Positions 5,820 through 18,508 of a stretch of 64,000 nt of DNA are shown here, piece after piece. The position numbers were made by a program, and so were the translations under genes. The notes beneath the pieces are model-generated. The model was not told the origin of the DNA. It made no database searches and saw only the letters and a program-made list of their open reading frames with translations. The first letter of the stretch is position 1. Every line of letters starts with the position of its first letter. This DNA comes from Pseudobdellovibrionaceae bacterium (GTDB lineage Bacteria; Bdellovibrionota; Bdellovibrionia; Bdellovibrionales; Bdellovibrionaceae). The DNA is taken from assembly GCA_013359135.1 (NCBI GenBank), contig JABWCN010000003.1:1-64000 (forward strand). Direction: 5' to 3'.

Positions 5820-6842
5820 ATGAGATTATTAGTTACTGGAGCTGCTGGGTTTATAGGCAGCGCCTTTGTAAGGCAAGCTCTGAAACAAAATTACAAAATA
5901 GTTATTGTCGATGCGCTCACCTATGCTGGGCACATGGAAAATATTGAAGACATCTTAAAACCTGGCGAAGTCGATTTTGTAAAATCAGACATCAAATCCC
6001 TGGATGAAAACTTAGCTATTATGACTAAGTTTCAAGTGGATGCTGTCATTAATTTTGCAGCTGAAAGTCACGTTGATAATTCCATTTCTGGTCCAAGAGC
6101 CTTTGTTGAAACCAACGTTCTAGGAACTTTTGCTTTATTAGAAGCTAGTCGCAGTTACTTTTCTAAACTCTCATCCGAAGCAAAACAAAAGTTCAGATAC
6201 ATTCAAATTTCTACAGACGAAGTTTATGGTTCGTTAGGTGAAACTGGAAAGTTTCACGAAGCCTTACCTTATCAACCTAACTCTCCATACTCTGCTTCTA
6301 AAGCGGCCTCAGATCATTTAGCACGAGCCTGGTACCACACATACAAACTGCCAACAATCACTACAAACTGTTCTAATAATTACGGACCTAGACAGTTTCC
6401 AGAAAAACTAATCCCTGTTATGATTACCAAGTGTCTTGCTTTAGAACCGCTTCCTGTCTATGGGAATGGAGGAAACATTCGTGACTGGATTCACGTTAAC
6501 GATCATAGCAATGGGATTTTGCTAGCTTTACAAAAGGGAACTCCAGGGGAAACTTATTGTTTTGGAGGAAATTCAGAGAGGAACAACCTCCAAGTCGTTA
6601 ATTCCATTTGTGCACTTTTAGATGAAGTCAGACCTCGTGCTGACAAAAAATCTTATAAAGATCTGATTTCCTTTGTCCAAGATCGAGCTGGTCATGACTG
6701 GCGATATGCTATTGATGATACAAAGGCTCAGAAAGAGCTTGGCTTCAATAGACATTATGCGAGCTTTGAGGATGGCCTCAGAGACACTGTGAAATGGTAT
6801 CTAGAAAACAATCTTTGGATCAACTCAGTTAAGAAAGGTTAA
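5820..6842 (+). CDS. rfbB: dTDP-glucose 4,6-dehydratase
   Basis: A 340-residue extended SDR, the second step of dTDP-L-rhamnose synthesis (dTDP-glucose to dTDP-4-keto-6-deoxyglucose, bound NAD+). It has the Rossmann motif TGAAGFIGS at the N-terminus, INFAAESHVDNSI, the STDEVYG segment that carries the catalytic Asp-Glu, YSASKAASDH (YxxxK), TTNCSNNYGPRQFPEKLIP and NIRDWIHV. All are hallmarks of RmlB. It starts the rfbB-rfbA-rfbC operon with short gaps. Length is normal. Cytoplasmic. Confidence 0.96.
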   Translation: MRLLVTGAAGFIGSAFVRQALKQNYKIVIVDALTYAGHMENIEDILKPGEVDFVKSDIKSLDENLAIMTKFQVDAVINFAAESHVDNSISGPRAFVETNVLGTFALLEASRSYFSKLSSEAKQKFRYIQISTDEVYGSLGETGKFHEALPYQPNSPYSASKAASDHLARAWYHTYKLPTITTNCSNNYGPRQFPEKLIPVMITKCLALEPLPVYGNGGNIRDWIHVNDHSNGILLALQKGTPGETYCFGGNSERNNLQVVNSICALLDEVRPRADKKSYKDLISFVQDRAGHDWRYAIDDTKAQKELGFNRHYASFEDGLRDTVKWYLENNLWINSVKKG

Positions 6843-6848
6843 TACGCT

Positions 6849-7727
6849 ATGAAAGGGATAATACTTGCTGGTGGAAGCGGCACACGTTTATGGCCAACAA
6901 CGAAGTCGGTGTCAAAACAATTACTTCCAGTATATGACAAACCTACGATCTATTATCCTCTGTCTACATTGATGATGGCGGGAATCAAGGATATACTGAT
7001 TATTTCAACCCCTAGAGATTTGCCTATTATCGAAGATCTCCTTGGTGACGGAAAACCTTTTGGCTTAAGTTTAAAGTACAAAGTTCAACACAAACCAGAT
7101 GGTATTGCTCAAGCTTTTATTTTAGGCGAAGAATTTTTAAATGGTAGCCCTGCCTGTTTGATCTTAGGAGACAATTTATTCTACGGTCATGACATTAATC
7201 ACCAATTAGAAAAAGCTAAGAATTTAAAAAAAGGTGGTGTTGTTTTTGCCTACCATGTAAATGATCCTGAACGTTATGGTGTTGTCGATTTTGATCAAAA
7301 TGGCAAAGCTCTTTCTATTGAAGAAAAACCTAAAGCTCCAAAATCCAACTGGGCTGTCACAGGACTTTATTTTTATGATGAAACTGTGACTCAAAAAGCA
7401 AAATCACTCAAGCCATCTCCCAGAGGAGAGCTTGAAATCACTGACTTAAATAAAATTTATCTTCAAGAAGGTAGCCTTAGTGTAGAGAAGTTTGGTCGTG
7501 GTGTTGCTTGGCTAGATACTGGTACCCATGAATCACTTTTAAGTAGTTCTATTTTTGTTCAGACGATTGAAGAAAGACAAGGACTAAAGATTGCCTGCCT
7601 CGAAGAGATCGCCTTATTTAAAGGATTTATCACTAGAGAACAGTTTTCAGCTCTGGCCGAAACCGCTCCTAAAAGTGGCTATGGCGAGTATCTCAAACGG
7701 CTGAACAAGAATTTCCCTAATTTGTAA
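6849..7727 (+). CDS. rfbA: Glucose-1-phosphate thymidylyltransferase
   Basis: A 292-residue RmlA nucleotidyltransferase that makes dTDP-glucose from glucose-1-phosphate and dTTP. Signature motifs: [11 protein letters not shown] at the N-terminus, [20 protein letters not shown] (metal-binding Asp), [24 protein letters not shown] and [10 protein letters not shown]. It lies six bases after rfbB and ten before rfbC in the same operon. Length matches short-type RmlA proteins. Cytoplasmic. Confidence 0.96.
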
Positions 7728-7736
7728 GGATAAAAA

Positions 7737-8288
7737 ATGGAAGTAACAGAGTTTTCTCTATCTGGTCTCAAACTCATTAAACTCAAATCCATCAAAGATG
7801 ATAGAGGTTTTTTTTGTGAACGATATAAAACCAATGCCTTTGAGGAGATCGGTCTTGGGCCCTTTATTCAAGATAACTTTTCAAGATCATCTGCTCAGGT
7901 CGCTAGAGGACTTCACTATCAGTGGGATAAGCCTCAAGGGAAACTCATCACTTGCCTCCGTGGTGAAGTTTTTGATGTGGCAGTAGATATTCGTAAAAAC
8001 TCACCTACTTATGGACAACATGTTTCTGTGATTCTACGTGGTGATGATCCCCACTGGTTTTGGGTCCCTGCTGGTTTTGCCCATGGTTTTTGTGTCCTAG
8101 GAAATCAGGAAGCTGATCTTATGTACAAAGTAAATAACTATTGGAGTGGCACTGGAGAATCTGGAATTATTTGGAACGACCCTGATCTTAAAATTTCATG
8201 GCCCATTGAAAATCCGCTATTAAGTCCAAAGGATGCTAAGCTACAAAGTTTTAAAAATTACTCACTAGATCCCAAGTTTTCAATTTAG
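7737..8288 (+). CDS. rfbC: dTDP-4-dehydrorhamnose 3,5-epimerase
   Basis: A 183-residue RmlC cupin-fold epimerase. Motifs: DDRGFFCERYK, QDNFSRSS, the RGLHYQ catalytic His region, KLITCLRGEVFDVAVDIR and the WVPAGFAHGF segment. It converts dTDP-4-keto-6-deoxyglucose to dTDP-4-keto-L-rhamnose, leaving RfbD to finish. A clear AAGGA ribosome site precedes the ATG, and the next gene starts seven bases after the stop, so the operon probably continues. Length is normal. Confidence 0.95.
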   Translation: MEVTEFSLSGLKLIKLKSIKDDRGFFCERYKTNAFEEIGLGPFIQDNFSRSSAQVARGLHYQWDKPQGKLITCLRGEVFDVAVDIRKNSPTYGQHVSVILRGDDPHWFWVPAGFAHGFCVLGNQEADLMYKVNNYWSGTGESGIIWNDPDLKISWPIENPLLSPKDAKLQSFKNYSLDPKFSI

Positions 8289-10562: not shown

Positions 10563-11453
10563 TTAGGCTTTGAATTTCTGATTTAACTCCTCCTTCATTC
10601 CTGAAATCATCAAATCTAAGAAAGGGGTTCGAATCTTATGTCTGGGCCAAATTGCTGTAATTCTATACTCTAAACTCCAATTTTTTGGAGTGTATGTTTC
10701 TATAAAATTTTGGTGTTTATAACATAGAAAATCAGGTAACAAAGCCCAGAAATTTTGCGATTTTAAAGCTTCTACAGCTACATCATAGGTATCGAAGTAC
10801 ATTCCCACTTTGGGATTCAAACTAAACTTCTTAAAGATAGGATTAGACTCGCAGTTCTCTATGCCTTGAGCACCCAATGCGACTGCGGCCTGGTAGTGTT
10901 GCAAATGATTTATATTTTTAGACTTCAAAAAAAGATGCTGTTTACCAAAGGCAAGAAGAAGCTTACCTTGAAAAATATCCTCTTGTTCATGTAAGGGACT
11001 TGAATGAGGAGAGAAACAAACCCCTAGATCAAGCTCCCCTGAGTCTACTTTTGTCAAAACCTCTCCAGATCTAAAGGACTGAATTCTGGATGTAACTTGG
11101 TTGTATTTTTTTTGAATTTTTAAATAAACTGGAGTCAATAGTTGTGAACACAAGAGATGAGTTGCAGACAAGCGAAAGTGACCTTTAATTTCACAGGAGC
11201 TATCTGAAAGCTCATTTTGAATTCTGAGGATATCTGCAAGAATGGCCTCAGCTTTTCCAAGCAAGGTATGCCCTGTCTCTGTTAAACGGATTCTCCGCCC
11301 TGTTTTTTCGAAAAGTTTTTTACCAAGTTGGTCCTCTAATTGAGCGATACTATGACTAATAGCACTAGGTGATACATTTAAAAAATTAGCTGCCTGCCCA
11401 AGATGTTCACGCCTTGCTGTTTCTACAAAATATTGTAACTGATCAAGTTTCAT
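10563..11453 (-). CDS. LysR-family transcriptional regulator
   Basis: A 296-residue LTTR. The N-terminal winged HTH spans residues 1-60 (LDQLQYFVETARREHLGQAA, then VSPSAISHSIAQLEDQLG), followed by the FEKTGRRIRLTETG wing. Residues from about 90 form the periplasmic-binding-like effector domain. It is divergent from the hydrazine-type operon at 11619 with 165 bases between, the classic LTTR arrangement, so it is the obvious candidate regulator of that operon. A T-N11-A dyad lies in the shared gap. The effector is unknown. Confidence 0.9.
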   Translation of the reverse strand: MKLDQLQYFVETARREHLGQAANFLNVSPSAISHSIAQLEDQLGKKLFEKTGRRIRLTETGHTLLGKAEAILADILRIQNELSDSSCEIKGHFRLSATHLLCSQLLTPVYLKIQKKYNQVTSRIQSFRSGEVLTKVDSGELDLGVCFSPHSSPLHEQEDIFQGKLLLAFGKQHLFLKSKNINHLQHYQAAVALGAQGIENCESNPIFKKFSLNPKVGMYFDTYDVAVEALKSQNFWALLPDFLCYKHQNFIETYTPKNWSLEYRITAIWPRHKIRTPFLDLMISGMKEELNQKFKA

Positions 11454-11512: not shown

Positions 11513-11535
11513 ATTGTTCTGATTTTTTCAACAAT
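11513..11535. promoter_or_regulatory. Candidate LysR operator (T-N11-A dyad)
   Basis: ATTGTT at 11513-11518 and AACAAT at 11530-11535 form a perfect six-base dyad with 11 bases between them, matching the LTTR T-N11-A rule. It sits in the 165-base gap between the LysR gene and the cupin/MetRS-like gene, about 85 bases before the latter's start. Confidence 0.5.
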
Positions 11536-11618
11536 AATGGTGAAATAATACTAATTTTAAAAACATTTCGTATCCGCTATTTATATGCAAGTCCCCATTT
11601 TAAACAAAAGGAGCTCAA

Positions 11619-13388
11619 ATGACATCGAGCCATTGGAACCAAATAGACTTTAAAAAGGCTTATAACATTTTATGCGCTCAAGTACCTGGACTCAACCCTC
11701 AGAAAAGTCTTACCCCCACTTTTTGTAAAGTTAAAAAGGACGAAGAAACCCTTCTACATTCACATTACGAAAAAGAAATATTCTATGTGATTTCAGGTAG
11801 AGGAATTTTTCTCATAAATCAAGATCAATTAGAAGTTACTGCTGGAGAGCTTATTCACATCCCAAGTCATAGCCCTCATCAATTAAAAAATTTCTCTGAA
11901 GAAGATTTGGTTTTTATCTCTATTTATGTTCCGCAAGAGGAAGTCGACATCAATTTCACTAAGGTTTTCATTACCACAGCTCCTCCCACTCCCAATGGCC
12001 CTCTTCATCTGGGGCATATTTCTGGACCCTATTTAGTCGCTGATATTTTAAAAAGATACTACCAGCAGTTAAATATTTCAGTCTTACATTTAAGCGGAAC
12101 TGATGATCATCAGAACTATGTTGAAATCAAAGCTCTGAAAAACCAAGAAAATATTAATATCTTCTTAAATAATAGACGTAGCCAAATTCTACTAGGATTT
12201 GAAAAGAATCAAATAGAAGTAGATCATTTTCAACATCCTTCACAAGAAAATCTATATCAGGAGCAGGTAAAGACATTTTTTAACCAGGCCAGAGATAGAA
12301 ATATAATTGAAACTTGTGAAGTTTCTATGCCTATTTGCAATTTTTGCGATCATCTTTTAGTTGATGGGCTGGTCGAGGCGACTTGTCCCCATTGTTTGGC
12401 GCCTAGCAGTGGTTGTTGCGAAAATTGTGGGCTTGTCGTTATGCCAGCAGAATTAAAGCAAATAAGCTGCAGTCAGTGCCACAGATCCGCTGATTTTAAA
12501 AAAATGCCAGTGATGACATTTGATTTAAAAAAAAATCTTCACTTACTACTTGAAAAAAGTTCATTTTATAAAAATCTTCCTCAGAAGATGCAGAATTTGC
12601 TTATATATTTAGGGAAGTTTAAAAATAAAAAATTATTAATCGCCTATCCACAATTTTCAAAAAAACAACGCGGAATAAAAACCCCAGATGAAGATCAATT
12701 GATAATTCATGTCTGGTTTGAGATGGCAGCAAATTATTACTATCTTAGTCAACAGCACACAAATAAAAAAACTCTTTGGATTCACAACTGTGGAATCGAT
12801 AATGCTTTTTATTATTTATTTTTCATTCCAGCTCTCTGTCTAGCATTAGATAAGGATATCAACTTACCATCTCAATATCTAATAAATGATTTTTTGTTTT
12901 TAAATGGAAAAAAATTCTCTACTAGTCGTAACCATGCCATTTGGGCCCATGAGCATTTGTTCGATAGTGATCTGTTAAGACTTTATTTACTAAGTCATAG
13001 ACCTGAATATCAGACCACAAACTTCGAAGTCGCAGACTATCTGTATTTTGAAAAAAAGTGGAAAAAAAAATTAGCTCTGCTTAAAGAAAAATTGGATTTA
13101 GAAAAAAATCAATATCCATTGGAAAAACAGAGTTCAAATTTTTATTCTAACCCCAGAGAGACATTCTTGCAACGATGGGACAAGTGGCTGCATGATTTCC
13201 ACCAGTGTCTACTGTCTATGAACAAAGATTTCAGATACCTTTCAAAACTCATCGAATTCATGATCGATGAAACACTTCATCAAAACTTAACCCCTGAAGA
13301 ACTAAATTTGGCGCAGAAAAATTTGCGTTTCTGTCTTTCACCTCTGATGCCAGAGTTTTCCCGCAAGATGACTAAGGAGCTTTTATGA
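11619..13388 (+). CDS. Cupin/methionyl-tRNA-synthetase-like didomain enzyme (hydrazine synthetase-like)
   Basis: A 589-residue didomain protein. Residues 1-110 are a cupin with metal-ligand pattern H47, H49, E53 and H87 (HSHYEKE, PSHSPHQLKN). Residues about 114-589 are a class I MetRS-like fold with APPTPNGPLHLGH (HIGH region), zinc-knuckle cysteines (C240/C243, C256/C259, C267/C270, C284/C287) and KKFSTSRN (KMSKS region). The C-terminal helical part is only about 130 residues and has little room for a normal anticodon domain. The same domain order defines Spb40 of s56-p1 biosynthesis and related enzymes, which join N6-hydroxylysine to an amino acid (glycine in Spb40) through an N-N bond. The two next genes are the expected partners. 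AAGGAG precedes the ATG. First gene of a coupled operon. Function is inferred from family and context. Confidence 0.85.
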   Translation: MTSSHWNQIDFKKAYNILCAQVPGLNPQKSLTPTFCKVKKDEETLLHSHYEKEIFYVISGRGIFLINQDQLEVTAGELIHIPSHSPHQLKNFSEEDLVFISIYVPQEEVDINFTKVFITTAPPTPNGPLHLGHISGPYLVADILKRYYQQLNISVLHLSGTDDHQNYVEIKALKNQENINIFLNNRRSQILLGFEKNQIEVDHFQHPSQENLYQEQVKTFFNQARDRNIIETCEVSMPICNFCDHLLVDGLVEATCPHCLAPSSGCCENCGLVVMPAELKQISCSQCHRSADFKKMPVMTFDLKKNLHLLLEKSSFYKNLPQKMQNLLIYLGKFKNKKLLIAYPQFSKKQRGIKTPDEDQLIIHVWFEMAANYYYLSQQHTNKKTLWIHNCGIDNAFYYLFFIPALCLALDKDINLPSQYLINDFLFLNGKKFSTSRNHAIWAHEHLFDSDLLRLYLLSHRPEYQTTNFEVADYLYFEKKWKKKLALLKEKLDLEKNQYPLEKQSSNFYSNPRETFLQRWDKWLHDFHQCLLSMNKDFRYLSKLIEFMIDETLHQNLTPEELNLAQKNLRFCLSPLMPEFSRKMTKELL

Positions 13389-14413
13389 CAAAGCAAGAAG
13401 AGTTTGATATCCTTATTATAGGAGCTGGCTGTATTGGCTCTAGTATTTTCTTTGAAATGAGCCGCAGCAAAGACTTAGCTCAAAATAGAAAAATTGGCAT
13501 CTTTGATTTAGGAAGAAATACCACCAGTGCGACCTCCGCCTCAGGAGGACTAATACGTCTTTTTCATGAAAACTCCAAACATATCCAACTAGCCCATGAA
13601 AACTTAATGGCACTAAGAAGTCTTGATTCTGTAAAAAATTATTTTAAATCTTCGGGTTCTTTATATTTTTTCAAAAAAAATCGAGAGTCAGATTATTTAC
13701 ATCACTTCCAATGGTTTGAAAAAAATAATTATCCATTTATGATTTATGACAAGCCTAGATTAGCTCAAGAGCTACCACAATTTTACATCGAAAGTCAGGA
13801 ATTGGCTGTATTTGAACCCGATGGTGGCGTATTAGATGTAAAATCTTTTTACGATCATCTTATTAAGCAATCTTTGGTAAATAAAAACTTCCTCTTTTTT
13901 AATGACTCTGTTCTGTCTTTATCTAAAATCAATCACTTTTATTTTTTAAAAACAAAAAATAAAATATTTAAAACTAAAAAACTGATTCTCTGTACAGGTT
14001 CTCAAAGTCACGCTTTTTTAACTCCGCTTGGAATTAAAATGCCACTTGTAACTAAAGAACTTTCCTACTTTAGCTATGAAGATACTTCTTTCCCTAATAG
14101 TCCTCATTATTTCGACAGAGAGTCACTGGAATTTGGAAGGCCACAGAAAGAAATGTCTTTCAATTCGTCACTATCACCTAAAAGAATTAAAACCATTATG
14201 CCTATAAAAAATGTAAAAAAAATACTTCGCAAAGATATGTATGCTCCCCATCGTGAAGGCTTAATCGGAGAAATTCCTGGATATGAAGGACTCTACATAG
14301 CCACTGGCTGGGGAGGAACGGCAGTTAAATTTTCCCTAAGTATTGGAAAACAAATGACCCAGCTCCTTGAAAATAAAAATAAAACTTCTTCTAGCTTTAG
14401 AGGTTTACAATGA
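13385..14413 (+). CDS. FAD-dependent DAO-type oxidoreductase
   Basis: A 342-residue flavoenzyme of the D-amino-acid/sarcosine/glycine oxidase (DAO) family. It has the N-terminal FAD motif ILIIGAGCIGSS, TSATSASGGLIR (re-face loop) and the C-terminal FAD-closing segment YIATGWGGTAVKFS. It overlaps the cupin/MetRS gene by an ATGA and has its own AAGGAG. In known hydrazine pathways (Spb39 type) such an oxidase cleaves the lysine-hydrazine intermediate to release hydrazinoacetic acid; the same role is inferred here. Length is slightly short for the family but both ends are intact. Cytoplasmic. Confidence 0.82.
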   Translation: MTKQEEFDILIIGAGCIGSSIFFEMSRSKDLAQNRKIGIFDLGRNTTSATSASGGLIRLFHENSKHIQLAHENLMALRSLDSVKNYFKSSGSLYFFKKNRESDYLHHFQWFEKNNYPFMIYDKPRLAQELPQFYIESQELAVFEPDGGVLDVKSFYDHLIKQSLVNKNFLFFNDSVLSLSKINHFYFLKTKNKIFKTKKLILCTGSQSHAFLTPLGIKMPLVTKELSYFSYEDTSFPNSPHYFDRESLEFGRPQKEMSFNSSLSPKRIKTIMPIKNVKKILRKDMYAPHREGLIGEIPGYEGLYIATGWGGTAVKFSLSIGKQMTQLLENKNKTSSSFRGLQ

Positions 14414-16329
14414 AAAAAATAATCGCTGTTATAGGTGCCGGCCCCAAAGGCCTTGCCTTAGCTGTCAAAAGCCTAGTGCTCAATGAGTTTATGCTTGGGG
14501 AGTATGAAGTAATACTGATTGAAAAAAACCAAGTCGCTGCCAACTGGTCGGGAAATGAAGGCTACACCAATGGTAACTTAAAATTAGGAACACCTCCTGA
14601 AAAAGATATTATCTTTCCCAATGATTTAAAAACAGGCTCTATTGAGGTTGATAAAAAAATTCAAAGCCGATTAATGGAGTTTTCTTGGAACTTCTATAAA
14701 ATGCAATCAAATAGTTATAGCGAATGGATCGATCGTGGTAAACCATCCCCTACTCATAAAGAATGGTCAAATTATCTTAATTGGATAGCAGGCAAGATCA
14801 AAGACCAAATTAAGATAATTCACGCGGAGGTAATTAGTTGCCAAATCAAAGGCAAACAATGGTTACTTGAACTAAAAAATAAATCTAACGATATTATGAC
14901 ACTTAAAACTGACGGCTTAGTTTTAACAGGACCAGGTGCAACTAAAATTGATTTTCCAATAGATCAAAAAAGTTTAGATCAAGGTCATCTCTATGATCTG
15001 GAAAGTTTTTGGCGTGAATGGCAGACAGGATTTTCACCTAAAAAAGAGATTGCAATTATAGGCACAGGGGAAAACACGGCATCACTTCTGCAAGCATTAG
15101 GTGAAAAATACCCTCATCTTTCTTTTCATATTGTTTCCTCAAAGGGTTATATTACTAGCCGATCAGAAAATTTTTATGAAAATCAAATATATAGTCAACC
15201 AGAAAAAAATCAGTGGCAGCAATTAAGTGAAAAAGATAAAAAAGATTTCATATCAAGAACTGATATTGGTGTCTTTTCTCAAAATGTAATGCGCTTTTTA
15301 AATGAAAATACGAAACACCAAATTCACTATGGTCGCGTGATCTCTATTAAGACTAATTCTTCAAACAGGCTAGAGTTAACTTTAAAAAATTCAAACCTTC
15401 TAAGGAAACTAGAATTTGATCAAGTGATTTTAGCAACAGGATTTGATTATAGCAAAGTCTTGAAGAAAATTTTGTGCCAACAATCATTTGAATTTCTAAA
15501 TTTTTTATCAACTAATCCAGAAACTTCTTTCAATGATGAAAATCTCAGCCATTTAATCGACTCAGACCTTTCTATTAAAGGATTAACTCCAAAATTATTT
15601 ATCCCTATGTTAGCGGGTCTTACTCAAGGTCCTGGATTTAACAACCTAAGTTGCCTTGGAAAGCTCGCTGACAGAGTCTTAACTTCTAAACCTAACTATC
15701 AAGTAAGATTTCTAAGTTCAGATGACAAAGAAGAACTTTTTAAGCTCAGAAAAAATGCCTATGCTCAAGCCAAAGGATTTGCCTTAGATCTGGAACGGCT
15801 ACGTTGGAACACTAGCGATGATCAAAGCTATATCCTTGGGATCTTTCAGGACCAGCAATTAATTTCCACGATGAGAGCCGAGGTGATCGAACAAAAAACT
15901 GTCTTGGAAAAAAAACTCGAATGCCCATGGAATTTCCCAGTAAATATTGATGGACCAGTGCTTTTATTAAGCCGGGCGGCGACCGAAAAAGCTTATTCTA
16001 ATAAAGGTTTAAACTTATTACAAAGAGGGATCTTTCTGGAAATGGCCAAGGCCTACCAACTTTCCCATCTCGTTGGAACCTTTGTGCCTAATTCTCCGAG
16101 AGAGGAAACTCTAAGGAAAATGGGTTATCAATTCTTTTCTAACCCGATGGGTTGGCAAGAATCCCACTACCACTCCTTTGGCTCCGTTCATGTGGTTTGC
16201 TTAAACTTAGACTGCAGCTATGAAAAGGCAGCAGCGTTTATCCAAGAACAACTACCTACAGAGCTCTACTCTTTGATTGCCAATTTTAAATTTAACGAGA
16301 GAACTCTAAAGAGGGTCACAAATCTATGA
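14410..16329 (+). CDS. Lysine/ornithine N-hydroxylase-like flavoprotein fused to a GNAT-like domain
   Basis: A 639-residue protein. Residues 1 to about 428 look like a flavin-dependent N-hydroxylating monooxygenase: FAD motif IAVIGAGPKGLALAV (5-19), NADPH motif IIGTGENTASLL (216-227) and the ATGFDY motif (342-347). Residues about 432-639 resemble a GNAT/N-acyltransferase fold (FKLRKNAYAQAKG, YILGIFQDQQLIST, SRAATEKAYSNKGLN). The N-hydroxylase would make N6-hydroxylysine for the didomain enzyme upstream. Stand-alone N-hydroxylases are about 430-450 residues, so the C-terminal addition is unusual. It is coupled to both neighbours by ATGA overlaps. Substrate and the job of the GNAT part are inference. 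Confidence 0.78.
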   Translation: MKKIIAVIGAGPKGLALAVKSLVLNEFMLGEYEVILIEKNQVAANWSGNEGYTNGNLKLGTPPEKDIIFPNDLKTGSIEVDKKIQSRLMEFSWNFYKMQSNSYSEWIDRGKPSPTHKEWSNYLNWIAGKIKDQIKIIHAEVISCQIKGKQWLLELKNKSNDIMTLKTDGLVLTGPGATKIDFPIDQKSLDQGHLYDLESFWREWQTGFSPKKEIAIIGTGENTASLLQALGEKYPHLSFHIVSSKGYITSRSENFYENQIYSQPEKNQWQQLSEKDKKDFISRTDIGVFSQNVMRFLNENTKHQIHYGRVISIKTNSSNRLELTLKNSNLLRKLEFDQVILATGFDYSKVLKKILCQQSFEFLNFLSTNPETSFNDENLSHLIDSDLSIKGLTPKLFIPMLAGLTQGPGFNNLSCLGKLADRVLTSKPNYQVRFLSSDDKEELFKLRKNAYAQAKGFALDLERLRWNTSDDQSYILGIFQDQQLISTMRAEVIEQKTVLEKKLECPWNFPVNIDGPVLLLSRAATEKAYSNKGLNLLQRGIFLEMAKAYQLSHLVGTFVPNSPREETLRKMGYQFFSNPMGWQESHYHSFGSVHVVCLNLDCSYEKAAAFIQEQLPTELYSLIANFKFNERTLKRVTNL

Positions 16330-17234
16330 TTGTTGTTTATTCATTTTCACTGATTTGTAGTTTGCTAGCTAGTGGAATTATCGCTAGAGTTTTGGCGTTA
16401 AGAGAAGTTTCCTACGAGGAGAGTCTTTTCTTTAAAGGATTATCTTGCCTTGGCTTGATATTATTTTTTGCGTTTAAAAATAATATCAGTCTAATTCCAA
16501 AAAATTATAAATTACAGTTCGTAAGATTTTTACTCGCTGGTACCTCTTTAGGACTTTTTACTCTGAGTTACAATTACCTATCAGCTACAGGTGTTGCTAC
16601 ACTTTCAAATATCGACATTCCCGTCATCCTTCTTCTTGGTTTTTTTTGGGGAACTCGAGCTTCCAAAAAAACGGTTTTAGCTTCTGTAACGACAATAGCT
16701 CTAGTGATCATTTTAGCCTTCTTATCAGAAGCCACTTCGCAGGAAAATCAAATTAAAGGTTCAATCTTGGTGATTTTTTCTTCTCTATTAATTTGCCTAG
16801 GATACTTTCTTATCAACGAAAGTATGAAGCTAGAAAATGAGCTGATGGTAATTCTGACACCTACTCTTGGAATCATTGTCTACGCTCTGGTAATCAGGTT
16901 TTCAGACTCCACCATCCCCGCAACCTCTGTCGTCCTTGCAATGTTTTCTGCAATTAACACCCCAAATGCAGAGGTTTTTCAGAATATTCTACTTTTTTCA
17001 GCTTCTGGAGCCTCGATGTTTGGTGCCTATATTTTCACGATGAAACTTTATCAACTTCTGGATATTTCTTTAGCCGAATTTCCAACACTCCTGAGTACTC
17101 TTTTGATACAACCTGTAGAGTATTTTCTTATTGGAGAAAAATTTAACCTGTCCTATTTCCTGATCACCTTGATTATCATCGTCTTCGTTTTAATTCTTTT
17201 AAAAATAAATACCCAAGAACAAGAAAGGCTCTAA
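16326..17234 (+). CDS. EamA/DMT-family transporter
   Basis: A 302-residue polytopic protein with about ten hydrophobic helices in two EamA-like halves and almost no soluble loops. The start overlaps the previous stop (ATGA). DMT-family proteins export amino acids and small metabolites, so in this operon it is the likely efflux route for the hydrazine-type product or an intermediate (context inference). The C-terminus is short and charged. Confidence 0.8.
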   Translation: MIVVYSFSLICSLLASGIIARVLALREVSYEESLFFKGLSCLGLILFFAFKNNISLIPKNYKLQFVRFLLAGTSLGLFTLSYNYLSATGVATLSNIDIPVILLLGFFWGTRASKKTVLASVTTIALVIILAFLSEATSQENQIKGSILVIFSSLLICLGYFLINESMKLENELMVILTPTLGIIVYALVIRFSDSTIPATSVVLAMFSAINTPNAEVFQNILLFSASGASMFGAYIFTMKLYQLLDISLAEFPTLLSTLLIQPVEYFLIGEKFNLSYFLITLIIIVFVLILLKINTQEQERL

Positions 17235-17236
17235 CA

Positions 17237-18037
17237 ATGACATCAACAAACAAAAGCTCTTACCATTTTGAACAGTTGGAAAAAAAAGAAATCGAAGCAA
17301 GCTTTTTAAAACAAAGATCTAATCTTAGATTGGATGGTTTTATTGATCTCCTAAAACGTCATCACTTTCCAAGCCAAGGAAAAATCTTGGAGATAGGCTG
17401 TGGACAGGGCATTAGAACAAAACTTATGGCCCAAAATTTCTCAATGACCGAAGTCATTGGCTTTGATCGTAGTCATGAACTACTGGAAGAAGCCAAAACC
17501 TTCAGTAAAGATGTGCCTAATATTTCTTGGCAACAAGGTGATCTCTACCAACTTCCCTATCCTGAAAATTACTTTGATGGTATTTATTTACGTTTAGTTT
17601 TTATGCATCTTTCTGAACCACTATTAGCATTAAATGAAATCAAACGGGTGCTTAAGCCTGATGGAGTGCTCCTTATAGAAGATGCCGATCGTGAATGCAT
17701 GTTTTTTGAACCTGCACCAAAATCCTTTGAGCTTTTTTGGTCACGGATTCAACAAGCGCAAAGAGATCTAGGAGGCGATCCCAACATAGGAAGAAAACTC
17801 TCTTACTTAATGAAAAAAGTTAATTTTCGATCTGTACACTCTGAAGTTCAACCCATCGTTGGTGATGGCAACGACATTACTTTTTTATTAAGAACTCTGA
17901 TGCCAAGCTTGATTCTTTATTTAAATCCAAAATATAGAGAAGAAGCGGAAATGGCCTTGAATGATCTTTACCAAATGGCACAATTGCCTGAAGCTAGCTT
18001 TTACCACTTTTGGTTTGTAGTAAGCTCCAGAAAATGA
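17237..18037 (+). CDS. Class I SAM-dependent methyltransferase
   Basis: A 266-residue methyltransferase of the Methyltransf_11/25 type. Motif I is ILEIGCGQGIRTKL, followed by VIGFDRSHELLEEAK (motif II region), GDLYQLPYPENYFDGIY (motif IV region) and ALNEIKRVLKPDGVLLIED. It starts two bases after the transporter stop and ends six before the C39-like gene. It probably modifies the product of this operon by N- or O-methylation; the acceptor is unknown. Confidence 0.85.
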   Translation: MTSTNKSSYHFEQLEKKEIEASFLKQRSNLRLDGFIDLLKRHHFPSQGKILEIGCGQGIRTKLMAQNFSMTEVIGFDRSHELLEEAKTFSKDVPNISWQQGDLYQLPYPENYFDGIYLRLVFMHLSEPLLALNEIKRVLKPDGVLLIEDADRECMFFEPAPKSFELFWSRIQQAQRDLGGDPNIGRKLSYLMKKVNFRSVHSEVQPIVGDGNDITFLLRTLMPSLILYLNPKYREEAEMALNDLYQMAQLPEASFYHFWFVVSSRK

Positions 18038-18043
18038 GATGGA

Positions 18044-18508
18044 ATGAAAACCCTTAAACATTCTCTTCCTATTATCAAACAAATTGATGATTTCACCTGT
18101 GGTGCTGTTTGTTTTGCCTCAGCTTGTAACTACTTACTAGGATTAGGTTTGACAGAAAGACAAGCCGGAGAAATGCTAAATACCTACACAGAAGGCCTTA
18201 CCCCAAGTCTAAACATTGTGCAATCAGCTCAAAAATTAGGTCTCGATGCTGAAGAAAAAATTTATCAAACTCTTAATGATCTTTTAAAGCTGCAACAAAA
18301 AAATTCGGTAATATTTATTGTTTGGTTTGATGAGGATGCCAGACACTATAGTTTACTTTCTGAAATCAACAAGGGGCATGTTTATTTGATGGATCCATGG
18401 AAGGCTCGAGAAACAGAACCGCCTCAATGGAATCAAATTCCAATAGATCTTTTTAATATCTATTGGCAAATTTGTGATGGAAAAATAATTGTTTTAAAAA
18501 AGATTTAA
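18044..18508 (+). CDS. Stand-alone C39-like cysteine peptidase domain
   Basis: A 154-residue C39-like papain fold with no transporter domain attached. The catalytic pattern is complete: Q13 (oxyanion), C19 in DDFTCGAVCFASA, H101 in DARHYSLL and D117 in LMDPW. C39 domains normally sit at the N-terminus of bacteriocin ABC exporters and cut at double-Gly leaders. Here the gene closes the hydrazine-type operon and no leader-peptide gene is visible nearby. No signal peptide, so cytoplasmic. It may hydrolyse an amide on a biosynthetic intermediate, or be a general papain-fold enzyme; its role is unknown. Confidence 0.7.
   Translation: MKTLKHSLPIIKQIDDFTCGAVCFASACNYLLGLGLTERQAGEMLNTYTEGLTPSLNIVQSAQKLGLDAEEKIYQTLNDLLKLQQKNSVIFIVWFDEDARHYSLLSEINKGHVYLMDPWKARETEPPQWNQIPIDLFNIYWQICDGKIIVLKKI

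Follow-up and report, generated by a model that had tools for sequence, protein, structure and literature searches.

What does the tightly packed operon at 11619-18508 of this stretch make, and how secure is the assignment? The stretch, which we call the window, is the whole 64,000-nucleotide DNA analysed, from contig JABWCN010000003.1 of a Pseudobdellovibrionaceae bacterium; the host assembly comprises 3.84 Mb in 94 contigs, and its relatives are metagenome-assembled genomes (MAGs) of Bdellovibrionaceae. We propose with good confidence, judging from the encoded protein families, that this is a LysR-controlled operon making and exporting a small hydrazine-derived metabolite. At its centre is a predicted synthetase in which a cupin domain is joined to a domain resembling methionyl-tRNA synthetase (MetRS), surrounded by the following features:

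11619-13388, + strand: predicted cupin/MetRS-like hydrazine synthetase, 589 aa (Pfam, metal ligands, ATP motifs, tree)
11724-11927, + strand: its cupin domain, residues 36-103, for the predicted Zn-dependent N-N forming step (PF07883, 3e-14; four ligand positions shared with PyrN, PMC8664883)
11964-13037, + strand: its MetRS-like domain, residues 116-473, for the predicted ATP-dependent ester-forming step (PF09334, tRNA-synt_1g, 1.8e-50)
13385-14413, + strand: DAO-type FAD oxidoreductase, 342 aa, sarcosine-oxidase-like (PF01266, 1e-19)
14410-16329, + strand: third protein, a fusion of an N-monooxygenase (NMO) and a GNAT domain, 639 aa (open frame)
14410-15693, + strand: NbtG-like L-lysine N6-monooxygenase domain, residues 1-428 (phmmer against 4d7e, 2.4e-70)
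15694-16329, + strand: GNAT N-acyltransferase domain, residues 429-639, starting at about 429 (separate genes of relatives; AlphaFold2 model)
16326-17234, + strand: predicted exporter of the EamA/drug-metabolite transporter (DMT) type, 302 aa (sub-threshold Pfam EamA; model of a homologue)
17237-18037, + strand: methyltransferase dependent on S-adenosylmethionine, 266 aa (PF08241, 7.5e-25)
18044-18508, + strand: C39-like cysteine peptidase/hydrolase, 154 aa (PF03412, Peptidase_C39, 2.6e-11)
10563-11453, - strand: LysR-family regulator, divergent from the operon (Pfam HTH_1 1.3e-20, LysR_substrate 1.8e-18)
11523-11545, + strand: predicted LysR operator, TTTTTTCA-N10-TGAAA (alignment of ten loci)

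Neighbours among the first four operon frames share 4 bases (ATGA), and the methyltransferase and C39 genes start after gaps of 2 and 6 bases, respectively. The six tightly packed genes described in an earlier sequence-only reading of this DNA are thus present as open frames, and its domain classes hold as well, but its gene list lacked the GNAT domain, the divergent LysR gene and the operator. Directly upstream of the unit, at window 5820-8288, are dTDP-sugar genes (rfbB, rfbA and rfbC-like), with genes for a membrane protein and a GT2 glycosyltransferase coming next; the dTDP-sugar genes are absent beside the cassette in the relatives examined.

Is the didomain protein an enzyme of N-N bond formation? 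By its sequence it is a member of the hydrazine synthetases, among which it belongs to a separate, well supported subfamily. All four metal ligands are kept (H47, H49, E53 and H87, corresponding to H50, H52, E56 and H90 of PyrN; PMC8664883), the class I ATP motifs HLGH and KFSTSR are intact, the latter with the lysine of the KMSKS-type loop, and PyrN-type ligands, an HLGH-type motif and KFSTSR recur in every didomain member aligned. The profile match to azaserine-type enzymes extends over the full length (hhalign 5.5e-81), with identities of ~28-31% to these and to the R. rhizogenes enzymes. The window protein shares two domains, metal ligands and ATP motifs with Spb40, PyrN, Tri28, AzsN and Apy9, but its subfamily is distinct from theirs. 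The protein also resembles archaeal-type MetRS (1rqg, 2.5e-36), as would be expected of a housekeeping or tRNA-dependent enzyme in a cluster unrelated to N-N chemistry. We give that explanation almost no credence: in a tree that also contains six housekeeping MetRS (among them E. coli MetG and the one encoded by the window genome itself), the hydrazine synthetases split off with support of 100/100, and forcing the window protein to the MetRS side is rejected by the approximately unbiased (AU) test (p 0.0027). The genome has its own housekeeping MetRS elsewhere, on a separate contig, and the fused cupin, together with a linkage to the NMO that is conserved in relatives with sufficient flanking sequence, likewise argues against a role in translation. 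The earlier identification of a didomain synthetase hence survives the tree set as its test, in that the protein does not group with housekeeping MetRS. In PyrN and RHS1, the MetRS-like domain joins an amino acid and N6-hydroxylysine as an unstable ester, which the zinc cupin then rearranges (PMC8664883), and by homology the window synthetase may work in the same way.

Within its own genus the synthetase is divergent. It is 38-41% identical to the copies of its genus mates; for the housekeeping MetRS the identity to one of them (G003) is 75.5%. The trees place the window synthetase outside the genus mates, but a genus clade is still compatible with the AU test (p 0.18, 0.12). GC content, compared for signs of acquisition, does not differ (35.3% vs 35.0%), and horizontal acquisition and fast evolution are equally possible explanations of the divergence.

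Which enzymes accompany the synthetase? The Pfam Lys_Orn_oxgnase match (3.3e-13) is limited to residues 90-346 of the third protein, and the closest solved relative of the hydroxylase is NbtG (PDB 4d7e, phmmer 2.4e-70), which puts it in the same sequence subfamily as the NbtG/MbtG lysine N-monooxygenases; unlike these, it lies outside any siderophore cluster and is fused to a GNAT domain. It is the sole convincing Lys/Orn monooxygenase in the genome, a second match being weak, partial and located in a 473-aa frame. NbtG and PyrN, when combined in E. coli by Zhao and colleagues, gave an N-N product (PMC8664883). For the DAO, the best PDB matches are to monomeric sarcosine oxidase (1.1e-5). The azaserine-like reference sets came from two plasmids, one of Streptomyces lavendulae (L069) and one of Sinorhizobium meliloti (L073). 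By blastp, the NMO does not belong to the same subfamily as either hydroxylase (E above 2), nor does the DAO to that of either oxidase (E 0.048 for L073, 8.8 for L069). Profile comparison detects remote homology for both, the NMO at an hhalign probability of 96.7% (4e-10) and the DAO at 93.7% (2e-7) over ~300 columns. Hence, the trio match to Spb38, Spb39 and Spb40 (AzsLMN in azaserine) claimed from the sequence stands for the synthetase, homologous over its full length, but weakens for the hydroxylase and DAO, whose homology, measured against azs-like clusters, is remote and nonsignificant by blastp. With the NMO and DAO matching remotely and the GNAT showing no relation, the partners appear to belong to the same functional classes but to have been brought together separately around a shared N-N enzyme.

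The oxidase leaves room for a different product. Rather than releasing a hydrazino acid, the N-N linked bis-amino acid might stay uncut or be cut differently, with the DAO giving a hydrazone or alkyl hydrazine before acylation and export. Apy10 sets the precedent, as it cleaves the other C-N bond (PMC11705231), and the DAO is placed by blastp outside the Spb39/AzsM subfamily and closer to monomeric sarcosine oxidase. The DAO gene nonetheless adjoins the synthetase gene as it does in the hydrazinoacetic acid (HAA) clusters of L069 and L073, and the remote profile homology argues in the same direction. We regard this variant as possible but unlikely, though of the alternatives it deserves the most weight.

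What might the acyltransferase contribute? NMO and GNAT are fused in the window genome only; in relatives the GNAT is a separate gene, 43-49% identical to the window domain, adjacent in each relative with a close form of the cassette and the most constant of the additional genes. An AlphaFold2 model (predicted local distance difference test score 89.5) predicts a standard GNAT fold. FeeM and CoA-dependent acyl-homoserine lactone synthases are among its longest-alignment structure matches; their scores tie with those of many GNATs (Z ~15), and this likeness was not used as proof. The GNATs AzsS, Tri31 and DobB acylate HAA (PMC10445470, PMC13061610). On the routes to azaserine, triacsin and diazo-oxobutanoate, the succinyl group that a GNAT puts on hydrazinoacetic acid comes off again at a later stage; for azaserine and diazo-oxobutanoate, a C45-family peptidase takes it off (PMC10445470, PMC13061610). 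By analogy, the window GNAT and C39-like hydrolase would be a pair comparable to GNAT/C45 but drawn from other families. The window GNAT has no detectable relation to the AzsS/Tri31-type HAA succinyltransferases (blastp nonsignificant; hhalign probability 0.8%), and an AzsS-like function by homology was rejected. The methyltransferase is sited after the GNAT in relatives, where its orthologue is 54-58% identical.

An NbtG-like hydroxylase fused to a GNAT also brings to mind siderophores: the third protein could form N6-acyl-N6-hydroxylysine, a hydroxamate (cf. IucD/IucB, MbtG/MbtK), and the MetRS-like enzyme an ester or amide, with N-N chemistry incidental. N6 acylation was indeed the 2010 prediction for such a neighbourhood (PMC2922099). 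This route is improbable in our view: the fused cupin keeps all four metal ligands, the GNAT matches no siderophore acyltransferase family, and no condensation domain of a nonribosomal peptide synthetase (NRPS) occurs anywhere in the genome; the search for siderophore genes covered condensation domains and not NRPS-independent siderophore synthetases. A genome without condensation domains fits a small product, in line with the earlier remark that no NRPS or PKS was seen and the product would be small. Among the unit's genes there is no carrier protein, adenylase, NRPS or polyketide synthase (PKS); adenylases, carrier proteins and PKS were not searched genome-wide.

How would a hydrazine leave the cell? 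The transporter falls below the Pfam EamA cut-off (E 0.034), and a homologue is modelled with 10 helices in a DMT fold. In three relatives (G003, G004 and G005), EamA and C39 are a single protein, and one model contains both the DMT and the C39 fold. In the fusions C39 follows the tenth helix, and positive loops together with the 10 helices would place it in the cytosol. The domain conserves Gln, Cys, His and Asp and resembles the peptidase domains of PCAT1 and ComA (PCAT1 match 1.4e-4). With the C39 exporters of the ATP-binding cassette (ABC) type it shares the fold and catalytic Cys, His and Asp, and in PCAT1 and ComA, as in the relatives' fusions, a cytosolic C39 is physically coupled to the exporter. 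However, the transporter here is a DMT secondary carrier without an ATPase, and no leader peptide was found. We raise, tentatively and as rather unlikely, the idea that carrier and cytosolic C39 form a coupled unit stripping the GNAT-placed acyl group from a reactive hydrazine at its exit. Our literature search found no paper on an EamA-C39 fusion. The closeness of the domain to PCAT1 and ComA could instead mean that C39 cuts a double-glycine leader, as in C39 ABC exporters, with a scaffold peptide as the basis for the small molecule. The packed operon has no room for a precursor gene, no short frame (>=20 aa) listed at the operon stands out as a convincing precursor, and the sole small extra gene in relatives encodes a cupin, so that a peptide route seems to us very improbable.

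Is the cassette a chance assembly? It occurs in 6/6 searched genomes of the window's Bdellovibrionaceae genus and in G008, a genome from a different genus of that family. LysR, synthetase, DAO, NMO, GNAT, methyltransferase and EamA were all found in the five genus mates and G008; C39 is present in the five genus mates, and the G008 contig ends inside EamA. In these genomes, EamA and C39 lie beyond the LysR gene; in four relatives the methyltransferase is followed by a further small gene, for a cupin. The cassette is also found in G227, which represents a second family of the order, and in three MAGs with other labels: L039 (Gammaproteobacteria), L042 (Proteobacteria) and L043 (Deltaproteobacteria). 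More distant forms occur in other Bdellovibrionota (G278, G127). Chance is excluded because the entire gene set is conserved across unrelated genomic contexts. These gene statements for relatives rest mostly on MAGs, and since the scan of named contigs used strict peptide patterns (11 loci), the distribution outside Bdellovibrionota is a lower bound.

Among 369 Bdellovibrionota genomes, 12 have the synthetase and 11 a strongly scoring GNAT, and the two sets nearly coincide. The exception, G252 (L085, 7082-10719), has EamA, C39, GNAT and methyltransferase only; LysR, synthetase, DAO and NMO are gone and the GNAT N-terminus is replaced by unrelated, transposase-like sequence, so that the locus is apparently a decayed cluster. 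Both G005 and L043 have a broken NMO frame, which may reflect sequencing error or decay. A distant synthetase-DAO pair in another Bdellovibrionota genome (G274, L063, 1-11722) has hydroxylase and adenylation-domain genes nearby, which suggests a peptide-linked hydrazine.

The expectation that known clusters are mostly actinomycete was not borne out: plasmids of Rhizobium, Sinorhizobium, Pantoea and Deinococcus carry relatives, and several non-actinomycete enzymes have been published (PMC11705231). On the symbiotic plasmid pRspN731c of Rhizobium sp. N731 (L068, 9992-11912), split cupin and MetRS-like synthetase pairs lie beside nodD2/nodD3; plasmids of many bean rhizobia match alike, and 39/70 matching plasmid records are Rhizobium. 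The conjugative S. meliloti plasmid pMl3 (L073, 5594-17063) carries an azaserine/NNG-like set with NMO, DAO, a 769-aa synthetase, adenylation genes, an acyl carrier protein, a GNAT and a C45 peptidase. Plasmid clusters of Pantoea agglomerans (L071, 7701-14498) and Deinococcus ficus (L072, 6586-13071) combine a cupin, a MetRS-like protein, a DAO, an ATP-grasp protein and a substrate-binding protein, with related matches in Pantoea ananatis from onion. On plasmid pXT29 of Xenorhabdus sp. TCT-1 (L070, 4001-8036), a GNAT and an adenylation-domain gene stand next to a MetRS paralogue that has no cupin match. Our literature search found no paper on hydrazine clusters in Bdellovibrio.

Does the divergent regulator belong to the operon? 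The gap between LysR and the synthetase is 165 bases and holds an inverted repeat at 11523-11545. When ten such intergenic regions were aligned, including those of MAGs labelled as different phyla, the T-rich TCA half and the 10-base spacer were present in 10/10 and the TGAAA half in 9/10. This conservation over ten loci links regulator and operon even between distant genomes, and a LysR orthologue (51-55% identical) occupies the same place in G001-G005 and G008. The exact operator form has 2 occurrences in the 3.84-Mb genome; the one further match is indistinguishable from chance and was discarded as an operator elsewhere.

Taken together, the likeliest product of this hydrazine operon is a small N-acylated, possibly methylated hydrazine derived from lysine and a further amino acid. 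From knowledge of the families, which gives both the steps and their order, the NbtG-like domain would N-hydroxylate lysine (possibly ornithine or diaminobutyrate instead); the MetRS-like domain would use ATP to activate a second amino acid and join it to the hydroxylamine oxygen; and the cupin domain would convert the ester, by rearrangement, into a bis-amino acid with an N-N link. A comparison of pocket residues with azs-type enzymes singled out no particular second amino acid. Next, the DAO would oxidise a C-N bond beside the hydrazine and so yield a hydrazino acid, which with glycine as the second amino acid would be hydrazinoacetic acid. The GNAT domain would acylate this hydrazino acid and the methyltransferase methylate it. 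The DMT exporter would move the product out of the cell, and the cytosolic C39-like hydrolase may cleave an amide, possibly the acyl cap, at the exit point. Directly seen are the gene layout, the retained catalytic residues, the conserved gene linkage and the operator.

The known systems support parts of this scheme. In the azs, nng, tri and dob HAA clusters, hydroxylase, DAO and synthetase are adjacent as in the window, and a GNAT and a peptidase-family protein are also present, possibly with the same logic of protection and deprotection. In contrast to these clusters, the hydroxylase and DAO here are remote, the GNAT is without detectable relation, C39 replaces the C45 peptidase, and the unit has no adenylase, carrier protein, NRPS, dehydrogenase or saccharopine dehydrogenase. 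The neighbourhoods of an MtRS paralogue, a cupin and a lysine monooxygenase described in Biology Direct in 2010 (PMC2922099) show the same linkage, sometimes with GNAT and papain-like proteins, but the window unit is without fatty-acid activation or carrier genes; the main text of that paper does not mention 'Bdellovibrio'.

Several points weigh against the scheme. Product, substrates and activity are predicted here from the genes, and lysine as a substrate is suggested by similarity to NbtG. With a DAO and hydroxylase remote from the Spb39 and Spb38 types, we are less sure of the release of a hydrazino acid than of the N-N step; Apy10 and Spb39, both related oxidases, cleave different C-N bonds (PMC11705231). 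The GNAT, showing no relation to AzsS, gives no pointer to acyl donor or site, and since L039 keeps the rest without the methyltransferase and C39, these two genes are accessory.

What would such an operon mean? Enzyme products with linear hydrazines include antibiotics, antitumour agents and metabolic inhibitors. What is new here is the partner set of hydroxylase, oxidase and acyltransferase around a known type of N-N synthetase. With ~seven genes, a conserved promoter region and a genome free of condensation domains, the system is small enough to be reconstituted as a whole, and the exporter-peptidase fusion could reveal how reactive hydrazine compounds are handled. The retention of the cassette throughout the searched genus, and in MAGs labelled as other phyla, suggests that it makes a useful molecule, in a group whose chemistry has seen little exploration. 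If the coupling of carrier and C39 is true, the exporter-C39 unit would protect its host, from a family of predatory bacteria, against a hydrazine compound of its own.

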